A stretch of DNA of 64,000 bases from Fibrobacter sp. (GTDB lineage Bacteria; Fibrobacterota; Fibrobacteria; Fibrobacterales; Fibrobacteraceae), in assembly GCA_017412605.1 (NCBI GenBank), contig JAFPWY010000010.1, positions 62,001-126,000 of the forward strand, given 5' to 3'. Numbering within the stretch: the first letter of the stretch is position 1; every line of letters starts with the position of its first letter. This document shows, one piece after another, positions 29,573 through 61,508 of the stretch. The position numbers were made by a program, and so were the translations under genes. The notes beneath the pieces are model-generated. The model did not search any database and was not told where the DNA came from. It worked only from the letters and a program-made list of their open reading frames with translations.

Positions 29573-29655
29573 GCGGGCTTCCTTGGTTACGCATGTAAAC
29601 GCAAATTATACATTTGGTATGGTATTTCCGCTTCCATACAGCTATCTTTAATTAC

Positions 29656-30501
29656 ATGAGTATCGAGGAGAAAAAATTACAGGAACCAGATGTCTTGCAG
29701 TACACGAACTATCGTGTATATCTGCGGGATTATTACGAATATAAGAAGAAGACCTCCAGGGCCTTCAGTCTTCGGTATTTTGCGGAAAAATCAGGAATTT
29801 CAAGCCATGCTCACTTAAAGTTGACCATGGACGGCTCCCGTAACATAACGAACGTTACGATTAACAAGCTGATTCGAGGGATTGGCCTCGAAAATCGCCG
29901 TGCAGCCTATTTCGAGAACTTGGTGTTCTTCAACCAGGCCACCTCCGATGTGGACAAGAAACTTTACTATGCGCAGCTGCTCAAGGTAAGCTCTCGCTCT
30001 AGACTCCGCAAGCTGGACCAGGCGCAGTTTCGCCTCTTCCGCGAGTGGCACCATTCGGTCATTTTGGAAATGGTCGCCATGAAGGATTTCAGCACGAACC
30101 CCAACTGGGTTTCCAAGCGCCTGCGCGGCCTCGTGTCGCCTGCTCAGGTGGAGGATTCCTTCAAGCTTCTCCTGGAACTCGGCCTTCTGGTGAAGACGGC
30201 GGGCGGGTATGCCCAGCGCGACCCCATGATTACGACGGACGACGAAGTCCAGGACATGATGGTCAAGCAGTACCATTGCCAGATGCTGCGCCTCGGTAGC
30301 GAAATGCTTTCTACTTTGCCCGCTTGCGAGAGGGACTTCTCCGCTGTCAGTTTCGGAATTCGCCGCGATAAGTTTGCTGATTTGAAAAAGCATATCCAGC
30401 TCATGCGGAAGGAATTATTAGATTTCTCGGCCAAACAGGGCGAGGCCGAAGATGTTGTACAGATTAATATACAGTTGTTCCCGTTGACGCGAGGTTTGTG
30501 A
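29656..30501 (+). CDS. TIGR02147-family (Fibrobacter paralogous) DNA-binding-like protein
   Basis: A 281-aa protein. The N-terminus LQYTNYRVYLRDYYEYKKKTSRAFSLRYFAEKSGISSHAHLKLTMDGSRNITN is the family hallmark and reads like an atypical helix-turn-helix. Region 60-130 (FENLVFFNQATSDVDKKLYYAQL) and the C-terminal winged-helix-like part follow, as in the DUF4423 group. Probably a transcription regulator (inference). TATCTTTA lies 5 nt before the chosen ATG, with no Shine-Dalgarno. Its stop overlaps the start of a lipoprotein gene (TGATG), so the two are translationally coupled. Confidence 0.85.
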   Translation: MSIEEKKLQEPDVLQYTNYRVYLRDYYEYKKKTSRAFSLRYFAEKSGISSHAHLKLTMDGSRNITNVTINKLIRGIGLENRRAAYFENLVFFNQATSDVDKKLYYAQLLKVSSRSRLRKLDQAQFRLFREWHHSVILEMVAMKDFSTNPNWVSKRLRGLVSPAQVEDSFKLLLELGLLVKTAGGYAQRDPMITTDDEVQDMMVKQYHCQMLRLGSEMLSTLPACERDFSAVSFGIRRDKFADLKKHIQLMRKELLDFSAKQGEAEDVVQINIQLFPLTRGL

Positions 30502-31829
30502 TGCGTTTCCTCGGGTACATGGCTTGCCTTGTGTTGGGCGTCTTGCTTATGGCGGGATGCTCCAATACCGCCGATGTTGCCGGCATTGAAATTGGTAATC
30601 CTGGACTTGCGAATAATGATACTTCGTCCAATGAAAATCAGGTGCTTGCTTTCAAGGCTGGTTTTTCCATCGACTATTCCGATGTGCTTCCGGCTGAAAG
30701 CAAGATGACTACCGCTTTGGCTAGGTCTTCCTCCTTGGCAAAGTCTGCGTCAAAGAACGAGCCTCTGCTGATAGATTCCCTGAATCTCACGCTGACCGAA
30801 GTTCGCTCTTATTGCAGCTTCTATGTTGGCATTTCGATTGTCCAGTCGATGGGCTTGGTTGTCTGGCCCTATGAGGACTCTCCCTACGATGTCTTGCCCG
30901 TGTCTTTTGTGGATGACGAACTGATAGACGAAACTTTCCGCAGCATCGACCTCCAGTCCGAAGGCCGTCTCAAGGAAATTGGCGTATCGTTCGAAATAAG
31001 TCGTAGAAATCATCCTAACGTCCAGGGCCGCGTGAAGGTAGGGGATGTCTATGTGCCGTTCATCTATGAATTGTCCCGTTTCCAGCAGTTTTCGCTGCGT
31101 TACCACTTCTCTCAGATAAAGGTGGAAGATTGGATTGCGAATTTGTCTGTAGCATTCTATGTTCGTCATTTCACTGATGGTGTGGATCTGAATTCCTTGA
31201 TGGTCGATAGGGATGGTGTTATCCGCATCAATAGTGAGAGTAATGCTGAGGTCTGGGAAAGCTTCAACGAACGGTTTGTCTCGAGCTTTGGATCCTTGCG
31301 TTACGAGTATCTTGATGATAAGGGACATGTCGCCACGGATTATGTGGACGATATCTTGCAGAATGTTGCCGGTAAAGTGGGGGAGAACGTCGTGACGGAC
31401 GGCAAGCTTGACAACTATTCTGATGATTGGATTTTCCTGACGCAACTCCGCGGGGAAGCTGATTCGGCGTACGTGAATGTAAATGACAAAACTCGAGCCA
31501 TCGAAATCGACGTGACCGCTGCTGGGCAATATTCTTACAGCGTACAGCTGATGCACGAAAATATTCCCATGCTGGCCGGACACAAGTACAAGTGCTCGTT
31601 CTTTGCAAGGGCCAGTGAGTCGGGACAGATAACGGCGCGTATTGGTTCGTATCTGACATACGAAACAGTCGGTTTCGAAGAACACTTGATGGTGAGAACC
31701 TCCGAGAAGAAGTTCGAGGTTGAATTTGAGCCTAAAGAGAACGATCCGTTTTCCCGGTTCGAGTTTAACCTCGGTGGCGCCGTCCGCAAGATATGGGTGC
31801 GCGACGTGAAAATCACAAGGCTCGATTAA
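30501..31829 (+). CDS. Large lipoprotein with C-terminal carbohydrate-binding-like domain, coupled to TIGR02147 gene
   Basis: A 442-aa protein. The signal peptide has lipobox LMAG-C (Cys about residue 20), followed by SNTADVAGIEIGNPGLA. The middle (about 60-280) is unrecognised and beta-rich. The last 150 residues resemble a CBM4/9-type jelly roll: NVVTDGKLDNYSDDWIF, EIDVTAAGQYSYSVQLMHEN, YKCSFFARA and the closing FEFNLGGAVRKIWVRDVKI. I chose ATG 30501; GTG 30498 would add one residue. Perhaps the TIGR02147 protein controls or responds to this surface protein (inference). Confidence 0.75.
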   Translation: MRFLGYMACLVLGVLLMAGCSNTADVAGIEIGNPGLANNDTSSNENQVLAFKAGFSIDYSDVLPAESKMTTALARSSSLAKSASKNEPLLIDSLNLTLTEVRSYCSFYVGISIVQSMGLVVWPYEDSPYDVLPVSFVDDELIDETFRSIDLQSEGRLKEIGVSFEISRRNHPNVQGRVKVGDVYVPFIYELSRFQQFSLRYHFSQIKVEDWIANLSVAFYVRHFTDGVDLNSLMVDRDGVIRINSESNAEVWESFNERFVSSFGSLRYEYLDDKGHVATDYVDDILQNVAGKVGENVVTDGKLDNYSDDWIFLTQLRGEADSAYVNVNDKTRAIEIDVTAAGQYSYSVQLMHENIPMLAGHKYKCSFFARASESGQITARIGSYLTYETVGFEEHLMVRTSEKKFEVEFEPKENDPFSRFEFNLGGAVRKIWVRDVKITRLD

Positions 31830-56192: not shown

Positions 56193-56320
56193 GGAAAATA
56201 GGCTCGTACACAACGTAAATCGATATAGGTGTTTAAATAATCTTTTTTTACGCAGGTTTAAAAAAATATACATTTGGTTACGAAATCATTACATTCTTTA
56301 TGGATAAAAAGGAACTCTCT

Positions 56321-58009
56321 ATGAGAAAAAGCATACTTGTTGCATCTGGTTTTGTCGCTGGCATCGTGCTTATGGTTGCGTGTAGCGACGAAGTTACCAA
56401 GGTGACCAATGTGAGTGAGAACGCTTCTGTTGACTCTGTCAAGGAATTTGAGGCGCTTCCGAAGTGCGAAGAAAATGTTGAAGGTACGCTCATATACGTG
56501 AAGGATTCCGCGAAGGTGTTCGGTTGCACTGGTGACGGCTGGGTTCGGGTCAATGGTAAGGATGGCGACAAGGGCGCCGAGGGCGACAAAGGTGCCAAGG
56601 GTGACGATGGAGAAAACGGTACGAGTTGCTCTGTCAAGGCCAATAAAAACAAGACCGGTTTTGATATCGTTTGCGGTGGCAAGACTGTAGGAACTGTATA
56701 TAATGGTGAAAATGGCGAGGCTGGTAAGAAGGGTGACGAAGGAGACAAGGGTACCGATGGTAAAAATGGTACGAACTGCACCGCCAAGGCCAACAAGGCC
56801 AAGACCGGATTCGAGATTACTTGCGATGGCAAGTCCGTAGGAACCGTCAAGAACGGAGAAAAAGGTGAAGCCGGTGAAGGCTGCACGCTTACGGAAGACG
56901 AAAATGGTCAGGTCGTTGTAACCTGTGGTGAAAAGTTTGTAACACAGTTCAGGGCCTCTTGCGGTATCGGTTCTTACGACCCGGCGACCCAGTTCTGTGC
57001 GTTCGACCTGAATGTCTACCCGCTCTGCCACAAAACATTGGAAGGTTTCGAACAAAGCCTTAATGCCGATGGTACCTATGACGTGGAATCCTATTTCTGC
57101 GACGTGACGGACCTCCTTGTGCCTTTGTGCAATGCACAACCCTACGACTTCACGACTCAGTTCTGTGCTGGTTACAGCTTTGGTGCCGTACCACGTTGTC
57201 ACAAGGAACCCGAAGGCCTTGGTCAATTTAGTAGGGATGGAGTCTATGACAGAAATAGTTATTTCTGTGATGCGAATGACTCGCTCGTTGCCCTTTGCGG
57301 GGATGACACGTACGATACGGAACTTCAGTACTGCGATTTGAGTGGAACTGAACCGAAGGTCGCTGCATTGTGCGCTGGTCAATCGTACGAACTTGAGACT
57401 CATATGTGCGTCGATGGCCAGATTAAAGAAGCTATCGCCTGCTGCATCCCCGAAGGACAGAACAGCAACTGGTGTAACGGTCATGCAAGTTCACGCTACG
57501 ATATCCGCAAGCAGTTCTGCGACACGCGCGATGGCCGTCCTTACAAGTACGTTGATGTCATCGCAAAAAATGATTCCGGGAATGTTGTTTACTCCGAAAC
57601 TTGGATGGCTGAGAACTTGAACTATGCAGGAACGGAAGAAGGTGAGTCTGATTGTTATGGCGGCATTTCTTCCAATTGTGATGCGGATGGCCGTCTTTAT
57701 ACTTGGAATGCTGCTTTAAGCTATTGCCCGGATGGTTGGGACTTGCCTACAAGTCAGCAATATGCTGATTTGTTTGAGGCTGCTGAGGAATATGGGATTA
57801 GTTATAAATTCCTAGACCATCGAGCAGGATATAAGGGATCAGGTAGTTGGAATAATAAGGGAAGAACTTCGATGATATGGACGTCGAACGAAAGTACGAG
57901 TGATGCAACTAAGGCATGGCGTATATACTTATCGAATGGTGTATACAATAATTCGAATACTGATCTGAAGACAAATCTTGAATCTGTTATTTGTATTAAA
58001 CACAAATAA
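56321..58009 (+). CDS. Collagen-like FISUMP lipoprotein, first of three tandem copies
   Basis: A 562-aa surface lipoprotein. Signal peptide MRKSILVASGFVAGIVLMVAC, with lipobox Cys. A conserved head follows (DEVTKVTNVSE ... AKVFGCTGDGWVRVNG). Then Gly-x-y collagen-like stretches (GKDGDKGAEGDKGAKGDDGENG type) alternate with about 30-residue modules NGTSCSVKANKNKTGFDIVCGGKTVGT. A Cys-rich region of 30-40-residue repeats follows (YDPATQFC, YFCDVTDLLVPLC, YDFTTQFC). The C-terminal 150 residues are the FISUMP domain (VYSETWMAENLNYAGT, GRLYTWNAALSYCPDGWDLP, ESVICIKHK). I chose 56321 by comparison with the paralogues. Confidence 0.88.
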   Translation: MRKSILVASGFVAGIVLMVACSDEVTKVTNVSENASVDSVKEFEALPKCEENVEGTLIYVKDSAKVFGCTGDGWVRVNGKDGDKGAEGDKGAKGDDGENGTSCSVKANKNKTGFDIVCGGKTVGTVYNGENGEAGKKGDEGDKGTDGKNGTNCTAKANKAKTGFEITCDGKSVGTVKNGEKGEAGEGCTLTEDENGQVVVTCGEKFVTQFRASCGIGSYDPATQFCAFDLNVYPLCHKTLEGFEQSLNADGTYDVESYFCDVTDLLVPLCNAQPYDFTTQFCAGYSFGAVPRCHKEPEGLGQFSRDGVYDRNSYFCDANDSLVALCGDDTYDTELQYCDLSGTEPKVAALCAGQSYELETHMCVDGQIKEAIACCIPEGQNSNWCNGHASSRYDIRKQFCDTRDGRPYKYVDVIAKNDSGNVVYSETWMAENLNYAGTEEGESDCYGGISSNCDADGRLYTWNAALSYCPDGWDLPTSQQYADLFEAAEEYGISYKFLDHRAGYKGSGSWNNKGRTSMIWTSNESTSDATKAWRIYLSNGVYNNSNTDLKTNLESVICIKHK

Positions 58010-58140
58010 CATCTTGACCCCAAAATTTATAATATGAGGAAAGGATAATTCTCATGAAAAAGAATGTAATTGTAGCATCAGGTATTGCCGCTAGCTTAGC
58101 CCTTTTGGTTGCTTGTGGCGACGAAGTTACCGAAGTGACC
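57968..58140 (+). repeat. Near-identical 170-bp junction, copy 1
   Basis: The last 14 codons of one gene, the 44-bp spacer and the first about 28 codons of the next are repeated at 59692-59864 with only about three differences, far closer than the rest of the genes. Confidence 0.9.
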
Positions 58141-59733
58141 AATGTGAGCGAGATGGTAACTCTTGATACAGTCAAGAAATTCAAGGAACTCCCGAAGTGC
58201 GAAGAAGATTCCGAAGGCTCGGTCATGTACGTGAAGGATTCTGCAAAGGTGTTTGTCTGTACCAGTGACGGTTGGACCCGTATGAATGGTAAAGACGGCG
58301 AAAAAGGCGACAAGGGCGCCGAGGGTGACCAGGGCGCTGCCGGCGATAAAGGTACGAGCTGCACTGCCAAACAGACCAAGGACAAGACGGGGGTTGATAT
58401 CGTTTGTGATGGCAAGACCGTCGGTACTGTCAAGAATGGCAAGGATGGTAAAGATGGCGAAAAGGGTGACCAGGGGCCTGACGGTCTATCAAAAACGAGT
58501 TGCTCTGCCAAGACCAACAAGGACAAGACCGGATTCGATATTCTTTGCGGTGGCAAAACCGTTGGCACAATCAAGAATGGTGAAGATGGTGAAAAAGGTG
58601 ATGCCTGCACGCTTACGGAAGGTGAAAATGGTCAAGTCCTTATAGAGTGCGGCGAAGAATCAGTGACGCTGTTCAAGGCTTCGTGCGGTGCCGGCACTTA
58701 TGATCCGGCGACCCAGTTCTGCGCAAGCAACATGAAGGTCTATCCGCTCTGTCACAAAGCATTGGAAGGCTTCGAACAAAGCCTTAATGCCGATGGCACC
58801 TATGACGTGAAATCCTATTTCTGCGACGTGACGGACCTCCTTGTGCCGTTGTGCAAGGCAAAAACCTATGACTTCACGACTCAGTTCTGCGACAATCATT
58901 TAATTTTCAGCCGTTGCGACAGTATTGCCGAGGGCTTAGCTGAAAACGTCCTCAAAGAAGGTGGCCAGTATAACAGTATAGATTACTTCTGCAGCGAGAA
59001 GGGTGTCCTTTATGAAAAATGTGCTGGAAACTCGTACGATCCGGATCTTCAGTTCTGCGATAGGAGTGAAGAGAATCCTCAGGTCGTTGCAAAGTGCGGT
59101 GGCCAGACGTACGAAATTAAGACTGAGAAGTGCGTCGATGGCCTGGTCGAATCGGCTATAGCCTGCTGCATTAAGGAAGGACAGAACGATAAATGGTGCG
59201 AGGATCATCCAAATTCATTATACGATATCCGCAGTCAGTTCTGCGACACGCGCGATGGTCAGCCCTACAAGTTCACTGAGATTACTGTAAAGGGAGATTC
59301 CGGGAAAGTTGTTTACTCCGAAACTTGGATGGCTCAGAATTTGAACTATGCGGGAACGGAAGAGAGCGAGTCTGATTGTTTTGGTGGCATTTCTTCTAAT
59401 TGTGATGCAGATGGCCGTCTTTATACTTGGGATGCTGCTGTAAATTATTGCCCGGATGGTTGGGACTTGCCTTCAAAGCAGCAATTTACTGATTTGTTTG
59501 AGGCTGTTAATAAATATGGGGTTAGTTATAGCTTCCTCGGCCAACATGCTGGATTCTATGGACCCCAAGGTTGGGAGGGTCATGGGGTCCATTTGTTGAT
59601 GTGGACGTCTGAAGAATGTACGGATGATGTATCAAAAGCATGGCGTATAGATATAAAAGATGGCTCATATACCGATTTAGTTATCAATCCAAAGACAAAT
59701 CTTGAATCTGTTATTTGTATTAAACACAAATAA
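58054..59733 (+). CDS. Collagen-like FISUMP lipoprotein, second tandem copy
   Basis: A 559-aa paralogue of its neighbours. Lipobox LLVAC-GDE (Cys about residue 21). The first collagen-like block (GKDGEKGDKGAEGDQG) is followed by TSCTAKQTKDKTGVDIVCDGKTVGT, a second GKDGKDGEKGDQGPDG block, another TSCSAKTNKDKTGFDILCGGKTVGT module and a third short block. The Cys-rich middle (about 205-400) has about seven YDxxxQFC-type units. The FISUMP domain (about 410-559) includes GRLYTWDAAVNYCPDGWDLP. GAGGAAAGG precedes the ATG. The spacer from the previous gene is 44 bp with no terminator, so co-transcription is likely. Confidence 0.88.
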   Translation: MKKNVIVASGIAASLALLVACGDEVTEVTNVSEMVTLDTVKKFKELPKCEEDSEGSVMYVKDSAKVFVCTSDGWTRMNGKDGEKGDKGAEGDQGAAGDKGTSCTAKQTKDKTGVDIVCDGKTVGTVKNGKDGKDGEKGDQGPDGLSKTSCSAKTNKDKTGFDILCGGKTVGTIKNGEDGEKGDACTLTEGENGQVLIECGEESVTLFKASCGAGTYDPATQFCASNMKVYPLCHKALEGFEQSLNADGTYDVKSYFCDVTDLLVPLCKAKTYDFTTQFCDNHLIFSRCDSIAEGLAENVLKEGGQYNSIDYFCSEKGVLYEKCAGNSYDPDLQFCDRSEENPQVVAKCGGQTYEIKTEKCVDGLVESAIACCIKEGQNDKWCEDHPNSLYDIRSQFCDTRDGQPYKFTEITVKGDSGKVVYSETWMAQNLNYAGTEESESDCFGGISSNCDADGRLYTWDAAVNYCPDGWDLPSKQQFTDLFEAVNKYGVSYSFLGQHAGFYGPQGWEGHGVHLLMWTSEECTDDVSKAWRIDIKDGSYTDLVINPKTNLESVICIKHK

Positions 59734-59864
59734 CATCTTGACCCCAAAATTTATAATATGAGGAAAGGATAATTCCCATGAAAAAGAATGTAATTGTAGC
59801 ATCAGGTATTGCCGCTAGCTTAGCTCTTTTGGTTGCTTGTGGCGACGAAGTTACCGAAGTAACC
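59692..59864 (+). repeat. Near-identical 170-bp junction, copy 2
   Basis: Offset by exactly 1724 bp from copy 1, and includes the same spacer and ribosome-binding site. It marks a recent tandem duplication or gene conversion. Confidence 0.9.
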
Positions 59865-61508
59865 AACGTGACTGAAAAGGCTTCGCTTGGTCAGGTCAAG
59901 AAATTCAAGGAACTTCCGAAGTGCGAGGAAGATATCGAAGGCTCCCTCATGTACGTAAAGGATTCTGCCAAGGTGTTTGTCTGCACCGGCGACGGCTGGG
60001 AGGGTTTTGATGGCGCCGTTGGTGAAAAGGGCGATAAAGGCGACAAGGGTGTTGCCGGCGATAAGGGCACGAGCTGCACTGCTAAACAGACCAAGGACAA
60101 GACCGGTTTTGATATCGTTTGCGGTGGCAAAACTGTGGGCACCATTAAGAATGGTGAAAATGGCGAGAATGGTGAAAAGGGTGCCCAGGGCGACAAGGGC
60201 GAAGATGGTGAAAACGGTACGGGCTGCACTGCTAAACAGACCAAGGACAAGACCGGTTTCGACCTCGTATGCGACGGCAAGACCGTGGGCAACGTTAAAA
60301 GTGCCGAAGATGGTGAAAAAGGCGATGCTTGCACGCTTACGGAAATTGAAAATGGCCAAGTCGTCGTAAAGTGCGGTGAAAAATCTGTGACGTTGTTCAA
60401 GGCTTCGTGCGGTATCAATTCTTATGACCCAGCAACCCAGTTCTGCGCGAACGACATGAAGGTCTACCCGCTCTGTCATAATACGCTTGCCGGGCTTGAA
60501 CCGTATCTCAATCCTGATGGCACTTACAACGTGCAGCGGTATTTCTGCGATGCGTCGGACCTCCTTGTTTCGTTGTGCGTTACCACAGCATACGATTACA
60601 CGACGCAGTTCTGCTCCCGTTCTACAGTCCTCAATCGTTGCAACAGTGTTGCCGAGGGCTTAGCTGAAGACCTCCGCAACGACGATGGTTCTTATAACGG
60701 TATGGATTACTTCTGCAGCGAGAAGGGAGTCCTTTATGAAAAATGTAATGGAAGTCCGTATGACCCGGATCTTCAGTTCTGCGACAGAACAACTAATCCT
60801 GAAAGCCCCCAGGTCGTTACAAAGTGTGGTGAACAGACGTATGTCCTTGAAACCCATATGTGCGTCGATGGTCAGGTTGAAGAAGCTATCGCCTGCTGCA
60901 TTCCCAAAGGACAGAACGATAAATGGTGCGACGACCATGCAAATTCTTTATACGATGTCCGCAAGCAGTTCTGCGATACGCGCGATGGCCAGCCCTACGA
61001 GTTCAAGACGATTACTAAGACAAATGGAAATGGTGAAGTTGTTTATTCCGAGACTTGGATGACGGAAAATTTGAAATACACAAATACGCAGGATGGCGAA
61101 TATGTGGCTCGCCCCGACGATGATTGCTTTATGTATGGATGTTACTATACATGGGATGCCGCGCAGAATTATTGCCCGGAGGGCTGGGATTTGCCGGATA
61201 ATGCTGATTATCTTGCTTTGACGGTCGCTTTTGGCTCAAGCTCCCCAGATTATCGTGTAAATGGTTCGAATGCAACTGGCTTCTCTTCACCAACTACGGG
61301 CGGCATTTATAACGGGAGTAGTTTTGAAAACAGCAGTAATGCTTATTATTGGTCTAAAACAGAACGCGCTCTTCTGGACGATGAAGAAGAGTCTCCTTCT
61401 GCTCACCGTTTCTTTGTTGGTCCTAGCAGCACCGGCAGTGTGAATTTCGTAAATACTGCGTTGAAGACTCATTATCTGTTTGTCCGCTGCATCAAGGACA
61501 AGAACTAA
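59778..61508 (+). CDS. Collagen-like FISUMP lipoprotein, third tandem copy
   Basis: A 576-aa paralogue. Its head is the same as that of the second copy. Collagen-like blocks (GEKGDKGDKGVAGDKG, GENGENGEKGAQGDKGEDGENG) alternate with two TKDKTGFDxVC modules. The Cys-rich middle follows. The FISUMP C-terminus differs from the other two: after CPEGWDLPDNADYLALTVAFG it has a glycine/serine-rich segment and ends HYLFVRCIKDKN, nearer to the 24300 gene. So the first two copies share a recent 3' end while this one has kept or gained another. It ends at paired hairpins. Confidence 0.88.
   Translation: MKKNVIVASGIAASLALLVACGDEVTEVTNVTEKASLGQVKKFKELPKCEEDIEGSLMYVKDSAKVFVCTGDGWEGFDGAVGEKGDKGDKGVAGDKGTSCTAKQTKDKTGFDIVCGGKTVGTIKNGENGENGEKGAQGDKGEDGENGTGCTAKQTKDKTGFDLVCDGKTVGNVKSAEDGEKGDACTLTEIENGQVVVKCGEKSVTLFKASCGINSYDPATQFCANDMKVYPLCHNTLAGLEPYLNPDGTYNVQRYFCDASDLLVSLCVTTAYDYTTQFCSRSTVLNRCNSVAEGLAEDLRNDDGSYNGMDYFCSEKGVLYEKCNGSPYDPDLQFCDRTTNPESPQVVTKCGEQTYVLETHMCVDGQVEEAIACCIPKGQNDKWCDDHANSLYDVRKQFCDTRDGQPYEFKTITKTNGNGEVVYSETWMTENLKYTNTQDGEYVARPDDDCFMYGCYYTWDAAQNYCPEGWDLPDNADYLALTVAFGSSSPDYRVNGSNATGFSSPTTGGIYNGSSFENSSNAYYWSKTERALLDDEEESPSAHRFFVGPSSTGSVNFVNTALKTHYLFVRCIKDKN

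Follow-up and report, generated by a model that had tools for sequence, protein, structure and literature searches.

Two described systems come closest to the locus considered here. In the SigI-RsgI system of Clostridium thermocellum, a sigma factor is combined with a membrane-spanning anti-sigma factor that is cut by proteases (PMC4711584, PMC12203970). In the RRNPP systems of Firmicutes, adjacent genes encode a cytoplasmic receptor of 250-500 amino acids with tetratricopeptide repeats (TPR) and a Sec-exported propeptide of 10-100 amino acids (PMC10075063). Here, we have analyzed a 64,000-nucleotide stretch of a Fibrobacter sp. genome (assembly GCA_017412605.1, contig JAFPWY010000010.1, positions 62,001 to 126,000; hereafter the window), in which a gene of the TIGR02147/DUF4423 family overlaps the gene of a lipoprotein that ends in a carbohydrate-binding module (CBM) of CBM4 type. 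The pair would work like SigI-RsgI or RRNPP but lacks defining features of both.

Like SigI-RsgI, the present system has several paralogous pairs per genome, the gene of a cytoplasmic transcription factor lies beside that of an extracellular carbohydrate-binding protein, and the targets are its own promoter and polysaccharide-degrading genes, which in our case are predicted. Unlike SigI-RsgI, the regulator is a helix-turn-helix (HTH) protein that matches DUF4423/TIGR02147 only, and Pfam and NCBIfam searches at E values up to 1 found neither a sigma domain in the regulator nor an RsgI domain in the lipoprotein; moreover, the partner has a signal peptide and a predicted lipobox cysteine (Cys20) and is not an anti-sigma factor with a cytoplasmic N-terminus. 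As in RRNPP, the genes are adjacent (with a TGATG overlap here) and the receptor size is within range (281 amino acids), whereas the regulator matched DUF4423 alone and no TPR in Pfam (E up to 1), the window partner has 442 amino acids, most other partners are large as well, and the phyla differ. Products of propeptide size (67-71 amino acids) were seen only at three loci (L175, L188, and L189), and the re-import of the peptide into the cytoplasm, which is part of RRNPP, is here only a proposed route.

Our main interpretation, to which we give a probability of roughly 0.55, is that the locus is an autoregulated and co-translated cassette in which a regulator and its cognate CBM lipoprotein are made together and the former controls cellulase genes. 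Sequence and model comparisons support the pairing, the conservation of a short tag in the partners, a palindrome with its place before cellulase-type genes, and the CBM4 fold. The features of the locus in the window are as follows:

29584..29601, forward strand: candidate palindromic operator TGGTTACGCATGTAAACG, kept in 29/29 ortholog promoters
29643..29648, forward strand: -10-like TATCTT before the regulator gene, picked by eye in the ortholog alignment
29656..30501, forward strand: TIGR02147/DUF4423 regulator gene, 281 amino acids, with ATG at 29656 and TGA at 30499-30501
29701..29955, forward strand: XRE-like HTH, codons 16-100 (moderate VIA Z, at most 8.8, for residues 16-99)
30010..30255, forward strand: winged-helix-like part, codons 119-200 (moderate VIA Z of about 7-8 with structures of ArsR, MecI, and MarR type)
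30501..31829, forward strand: lipoprotein gene, 442 amino acids, with signal peptide
30558..30560, forward strand: codon of lipobox Cys20 (LMAG-C), invariant in 20 aligned orthologs and 33 aligned partners
30582..30602, forward strand: tag GIEIGNP, residues 28-34, present in 29/29 orthologs
31380..31823, forward strand: CBM4-like domain, residues 294-441 (Pfam CBM_4_9 and VIA fold match)

The regulator is a full-length member of TIGR02147 (NCBIfam Fsuc_second; 318 bits with a cut-off of 50, model positions 2-271 of 272) and of DUF4423 (Pfam PF14394; E 2.5e-36, 125 bits, cut-off 30); an ortholog was detected at E 1e-60 in 74 of 80 genomes of the genus. An AlphaFold2 model (pLDDT 89) contains the HTH, the winged helix, and long helices, with fold Z values that are moderate and of a size that chance arrangements can also give. 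A Foldseek comparison of the model with the PDB returned no match at E 0.001 or better, and the best E in a sequence search against solved structures was only 0.11. The HTH resembles that of HigA in structure comparison; a toxin-antitoxin reading based on this was dropped because the adjacent gene encodes an exported lipoprotein. The regulator probably binds DNA and controls its own expression: the suggestion of DNA binding, already made in the sequence-only reading, has gained support from the modelled HTH and winged helix, from the palindrome in ortholog promoters, and from paralog repeats that vary with the recognition helix.

The lipoprotein starts at the ATG of 30501-30503, and the ORF (open reading frame) coordinates confirm that this codon and the regulator stop overlap as TGATG. 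The carbohydrate-binding-like end, which had been proposed to follow an IEIGNPG segment (residues 29-35), is also borne out. Pfam detects CBM_4_9 at the C-terminus (E 8.8e-6; 26.6 bits, barely above the cut-off of 25.9), and residues 297-441 of the model match the CBM4 structures 1gui and 2y64 with a VIA Z of 20.6; over the CBM4 modules compared (1gui, 2y64, and CelK, 3p6b), the fold is the same with Z 20.0-20.6. A difference is that Pfam detected no catalytic domain in the lipoprotein, whose CBM may bind cellulose. Residues 1-83, which include the tag, are modelled as disordered (pLDDT <50). No other full-length relative of the lipoprotein was found in the genome at E 10, so the partners described below are linked by their tag rather than by a common domain.

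The view that the pair is repeated across this genome proved correct. In the 15 contigs (3.53 Mb) analyzed, 33 TIGR02147 genes were identified and the flanks of all 33 were read; every one is followed by a same-strand lipoprotein-type ORF, with a signal peptide and a lipobox-type cysteine, that starts no more than 44 nucleotides from its stop (33/33, counting T14, which misses the automatic signal rule and reads LLLIA-C). The two genes overlap in 20 of the 33 pairs, nine times by exactly 4 nucleotides, with start codons chosen by script. Among 572 neighbouring ORF pairs of the same genome, which were obtained by simple ORF calling without a gene finder, 178 shared a strand and were equally close; 24 of these 178 were lipoprotein-like. 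In a second genome of the genus (G054), a partner was present at 29 of the 30 loci read, out of 39 matches. Across 15 genomes from other genera of the phylum, a lipoprotein partner was also found at all 28 loci read, L120 being recognized by eye and the other 27 by the automatic rule (two of the 30 fetched loci were left out for want of coordinates); 30 loci from a 150-genome survey of the phylum stand outside the pairing counts, except L074. TIGR02147 was detected in 140 of these 150 genomes versus none of 14 control genomes, and the family is expanded, with 33 copies here and 85 matches in G089. Four regulator-lipoprotein cassettes (T17, T12, T09, and T11) lie in tandem on contig C6 of our genome (G000, approximately 143-158 kb), an arrangement suggestive of joint duplication of the two genes.

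Outside Fibrobacterota, TIGR02147 was present in 10/10 Bdellovibrionota genomes reached by a 16S pattern and in 47 of 59 drawn from the phylum. With an exported ORF start within -45 to +60 nucleotides as the partner criterion, and in samples that consist of better-scoring rather than random matches, partners were detected at 24 of 48 non-edge loci (including L171, missed by the signal rule), at 25 of 30 loci (including L195, missed by the rule, and three ORFs of 67-71 amino acids), and at 10 of 19 non-edge loci; the figure for the Bdellovibrio bacteriovorus kdesi genome was 8 of 14 TIGR02147 loci. The outcome that the sequence-only reading named as refuting, TIGR02147 genes elsewhere without a consistent lipoprotein neighbour, was not seen in Fibrobacterota, but many Bdellovibrionota copies have no partner. 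A supported clade of nine Bdellovibrionota proteins (L146-L153 and L155, two rows of which end at a contig edge) has no exported neighbour where the flank is readable, and some of its members bear a long C-terminal extension.

What the partners have in common, according to the alignment, is a short tag of the approximate form G-x-E-x-(G/T)-N close to the mature N-terminus. The sequence-only reading had asked whether lipoproteins with an IEIGNP segment lie downstream of TIGR02147 genes more often than chance; the excess of lipoprotein neighbours is clear (33/33 versus 24/572), but IEIGNP itself is only the local form of this wider tag. The 33 aligned partners have a mean column identity of 11%, with Cys20 invariant and one glycine nearby and one further on nearly so, and the segments after the cysteine include VAGGTEAES, EAGTTEIDN, TAGNTTEIEN, and VAGSSLETEN, compared to VAGIEIGNP in the window. 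As judged from their domains, the partner bodies are unrelated to one another (Fib_succ_major and CarboxypepD_reg in 9/33 each; pectate lyase, LamG-like, and CBM4_9 in one each). A tag profile from the other genera separated our partners from 96 other lipoproteins with an area under the curve (AUC) of 0.93, with 23 of 33 above 95% of the controls and 11 above all of them, the cysteine of three partners being placed by a fallback rule. A strict tag pattern occurred in 19/33 partners versus 0/96 other lipoproteins; when a profile from one phylum was applied to the other, the AUC was 0.65-0.90. A profile including the lipobox (AUC 0.99) was not relied on, since part of its signal is the lipobox, and a search of the tag pattern over all exported ORFs was too noisy (19/229 controls), so mature lipoprotein N-termini and the profile were used instead.

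The window form GIEIGNP is kept in 29/29 same-genus orthologs, and in 20 aligned orthologs (42-84% identity) it makes up seven contiguous invariant columns that are followed by a hypervariable linker; outside the genus, L118 has GIEIGNP and L103 has GIEVGNP. Partner tags in Bdellovibrionota read GGELGN, GFEIGNG, GTDTGNP, GTEVGNG, GGTEVGSGG, and VVGNGG, at or near the signal peptidase site as judged by eye. GN[GPAV] occurs in 13/24 and 18/22 of these partners versus 6/140 exported ORFs of one B. bacteriovorus genome, and the pattern with E is rare in the first partner set (2/24). Tiny exported ORFs (67-71 amino acids) were observed directly behind three Bdellovibrionota TIGR02147 genes: L188 and L189 consist of a signal peptide and two tag copies, and L175 is a 68-residue lipoprotein with one copy. 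A separate observation concerns L066:17499-18791, a lipoprotein with an alpha/beta-hydrolase look (by eye), a tag-like AGPGSETT, and no TIGR02147 gene before it, which may be an orphan partner.

A quick tree of 165 regulators, in which several branches are long, places the window clade (T06, L261, L118, and L103; support 100) outside the main Fibrobacterota clade, and the row nearest to it is Bdellovibrionota L193 (support 92), whose neighbour has no clear tag. In its tag, GIEIGNP, the window partner is similar to the Bdellovibrionota clade (GFEIGNG). On the Fibrobacterota side of the tree stand the Bdellovibrionota rows L175, L179, L180, and L201 (support 98), the lipoprotein neighbours of which carry GSDVGNP, GTDTGNP, GTNTGNV, and GTDTGNA, the last of these being 136 nucleotides off, behind a regulator frame with an internal stop. 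From these tree positions, the form of the tag seems to follow the regulator lineage across phyla.

In the promoters of the window regulator and its orthologs, a palindrome, TGGTTAC-N4-GTAAACG, ends 53-54 bp before the ATG in 29/29 cases (27 exact and two relaxed; 30 upstream regions were fetched, and that of L215 was dropped as truncated at a contig end), and it is retained although the rest of the promoter has diverged. With up to two mismatches, the window contains two matches versus 0.25 expected. By its conservation, the palindrome is a putative operator in the regulator's own promoter. The paralogs have sites of a different kind: among 59 from our genome and G054 (T03, T29, L258, and L281 were dropped, having no usable ATG), 23 carry direct repeats at a spacing of 69-76 bp, the copy closer to the gene lying 44-66 nucleotides before the ATG, compared to a mean of 4.5 and a maximum of 9 in shuffles and 1-5 at other spacings. 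Such repeats were also considered as the window operator and are absent there, and it was the ortholog comparison that gave the palindrome; the window operator is therefore likely to be of another form.

Where GTATn repeats go together with an SPx recognition helix (14 regulators), base n tracks residue x (p = 3.3e-4): with Asn, A is found in at least one repeat copy and C never (6/6), and with Ile, Ser, Thr, or Val, C is found in at least one copy and A never (8/8). This rule was first spotted by eye in our own genome and the five G054 cases agree with it; the count includes T04, whose repeat is below the score line, and leaves out T16, L267, L272, and L282, which have other repeats. Since the tree groups T28 (Thr) with the Asn proteins T26, T27, and L283, puts T23, which has Asn, next to T10 (Ile), and has T04/L257, also with Asn, in a different place, the switch at this residue seems to have arisen more than once.

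Genome-wide, four palindrome sites with no more than one mismatch were detected, compared to none for the reversed-pattern control, and the three that are not the regulator's own site (3/3) all lie 76-77 bp before exported genes of glycoside hydrolase family 5 (GH5; two) or CBM30-CBM11 type (one). The sites elsewhere in the genome, given as contig and position and including one with two mismatches, are as follows:

C13:67421: exact site, 76 bp before the gene for a 753-residue GH5 protein with a tail of type IX secretion system (T9SS) type
C1:47645: one mismatch, 77 bp before the gene for a 1055-residue CBM30-CBM11 protein with a weak GH51-type match
C13:55307: one mismatch, 76 bp before a GH5 lipoprotein gene and 117 bp before a divergent CBM30 gene
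C7:50367: two mismatches, 75 bp before another GH5 lipoprotein gene

At two mismatches, there are 20 further sites, of which 18 are inside long open frames, one is 62 bp before an oxidoreductase-like ORF, and one is C7:50367. A scan of 760 kb of the same genome with position weights put too much weight on the spacer bases, gave four matches, and missed a known one-mismatch site; it was not used. Within the genus, 49 exact sites occur in 40 of 61 genomes. Six of them lie 74-76 bp before a GH5 gene, in G000 and five close relatives (GH5 by Pfam on the G000 protein, the relatives being matched by their N-termini), and 39 were classed as self by coordinates or spacer, most without being opened. 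In 14 further genomes, each has a self site (coordinates compared with the ortholog list), and 16 of the 17 non-self sites with one mismatch were read; five of the seven that are intergenic precede glycoside hydrolases, namely two GH5 genes, each at 78 bp, two GH9 genes, at 77 and 54 bp, and a GH8 gene at 77 bp, and the remaining two stand before a membrane protein family and before an exported protein with no Pfam match. Given the candidate operators before cellulase genes, cellulose is the likely subject of the pair. In five genomes (L377, L378, L379, L381, and L395), the palindrome, exact or with one mismatch, was also seen 127 or 169 bp before the gene of a 129-residue membrane protein.

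According to the proposed mechanism, a cytoplasmic regulator with HTH and winged helix would be paired with its own exported and tag-marked partner. The window regulator would bind TGGTTAC-N4-GTAAACG in its own promoter and upstream of genes for exported cellulases and cellulose-binding proteins, exerting control that may be activation or repression, and the CBM4 module of the lipoprotein would tie this regulon to extracellular beta-glucan. The tag may be what the regulator recognizes, by either of two routes: it could be bound on precursors that are still unexported, or a tag fragment could be released and return to the cytoplasm. The partners that consist of little but the tag favour the tag as the message. 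A broader and more tentative proposal, which we hold to be well short of even odds, is that TIGR02147 proteins are intracellular receptors for the tags of their partners, a counterpart in the Gram-negative Fibrobacterota and Bdellovibrionota of receptor-propeptide systems with tens of cassettes per genome, in which the CBM4-lipoprotein cassette of Fibrobacter would be a cellulose sensor that switches cellulase genes. The sensing pair envisaged in the sequence-only reading is, taken as a whole, partly supported.

Several observations weigh against these interpretations. It is not evident where a soluble regulator and an exported lipoprotein would meet, and DNA binding, the sign of control, cellulose as the ligand, and recognition of the tag are inferred. 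Regarding the tag, 10 of our 33 partners fall below the 95% line of the profile, a looser pattern that is found in 21/33 of them also occurs in 19/229 exported controls, as expected of a degenerate tag, and the best-scoring control, the lipoprotein at L066:17499 with AGPGSETT, has no regulator before it. Many TIGR02147 copies in Bdellovibrionota are without a partner. Regarding the operator, the window promoter does not contain the spaced direct repeats of the paralogs, and the two-mismatch scan of the genome (24 sites versus 17 in the control) reflects mostly chance. In the 14 further genomes, 9 of the 16 non-self sites read are inside ORFs and the reversed pattern gave four sites. Four exact sites (G218, G111, G228, and G103) lie 127 or 169 bp before the 129-residue membrane protein, which is not a cellulase, and G228 has an exact site and no regulator ortholog at E 1e-60.

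Among the other explanations, the one that survives best, as a possible though doubtful reading, is that the tag is an export or sorting signal for an envelope machine and that the regulator merely controls its own cargo operon, with no dialogue between the two proteins. Bacteroidetes lipoproteins carry surface-export signals, which provide a model for this. The tag adjoins the lipid anchor or the signal peptidase site, the usual place of sorting signals, it is borne by unrelated bodies, and a similar segment stands on the regulator-less lipoprotein of L066; however, a general signal should be common and the strict pattern was absent from all 96 other lipoproteins, the tiny L188 and L189 with their two tag copies have hardly any cargo, and the tag form seems to track the regulator lineage across phyla. 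It is rather unlikely that the palindrome belongs to some other, unlinked cellulase regulator which also controls this operon, with a different role for the TIGR02147 protein. The promoter without direct repeats and the G228 site would agree with such a regulator, but the fixed distance of 53-54 bp from the regulator start in 29/29 orthologs and the apparent autoregulation of the paralogs through gene-specific sites speak against it. A mere paralogous expansion of an ordinary autoregulated operon, with the tag an inherited remnant and the cellulase-gene sites due to chance, would fit the strong expansion of the family (33 copies here, 85 matches in G089) and the tandem copies on C6 but is very improbable, considering that GIEIGNP is invariant beside a hypervariable linker, that the partner bodies are unrelated, and that a site-to-ATG distance of 74-78 bp recurs before different enzyme families in different species.

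The cassette interpretation bears on a question that appears unsettled, namely the control of cellulases in Fibrobacter. In Fibrobacter succinogenes S85, cellulases of the enzyme families found behind the palindrome (GH5, GH8, GH9, and CBM30-CBM30-CBM11-GH51) were more abundant on cellulose, and the GH9 protein FSU_0809 and the GH8 protein FSU_3149 were less abundant; the authors of this proteome study suggest catabolite repression, and the relevant section of the paper names no regulator (PMC6851124). For this control, our analysis provides a candidate regulator, a candidate operator, and a target list, and these bacteria may use the pair to sense cellulose. The TIGR02147 and DUF4423 family models carry no function, and the partner, the candidate operators, and the targets are added here. 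A function is thereby suggested for a large family that had none, present in two phyla and also in the predatory Bdellovibrio, and exported proteins may pass information to a cytoplasmic regulator by way of the tag. In the literature searched, the coverage of which is thin for subscription journals, no description of the regulator-lipoprotein pair was found; TIGR02147 gave nothing by name, DUF4423 led only to a Bdellovibrio proteome, and the GNGG motif and translational coupling gave nothing relevant.

In another part of the window (56300-61508), three tandem lipoproteins start with C-(S/G)-DEVT-(K/E)-VTNV. N-termini resembling these are also present at other places in the genome (L289 and L065), and these proteins form a separate lipoprotein group with a conserved N-terminus of its own.

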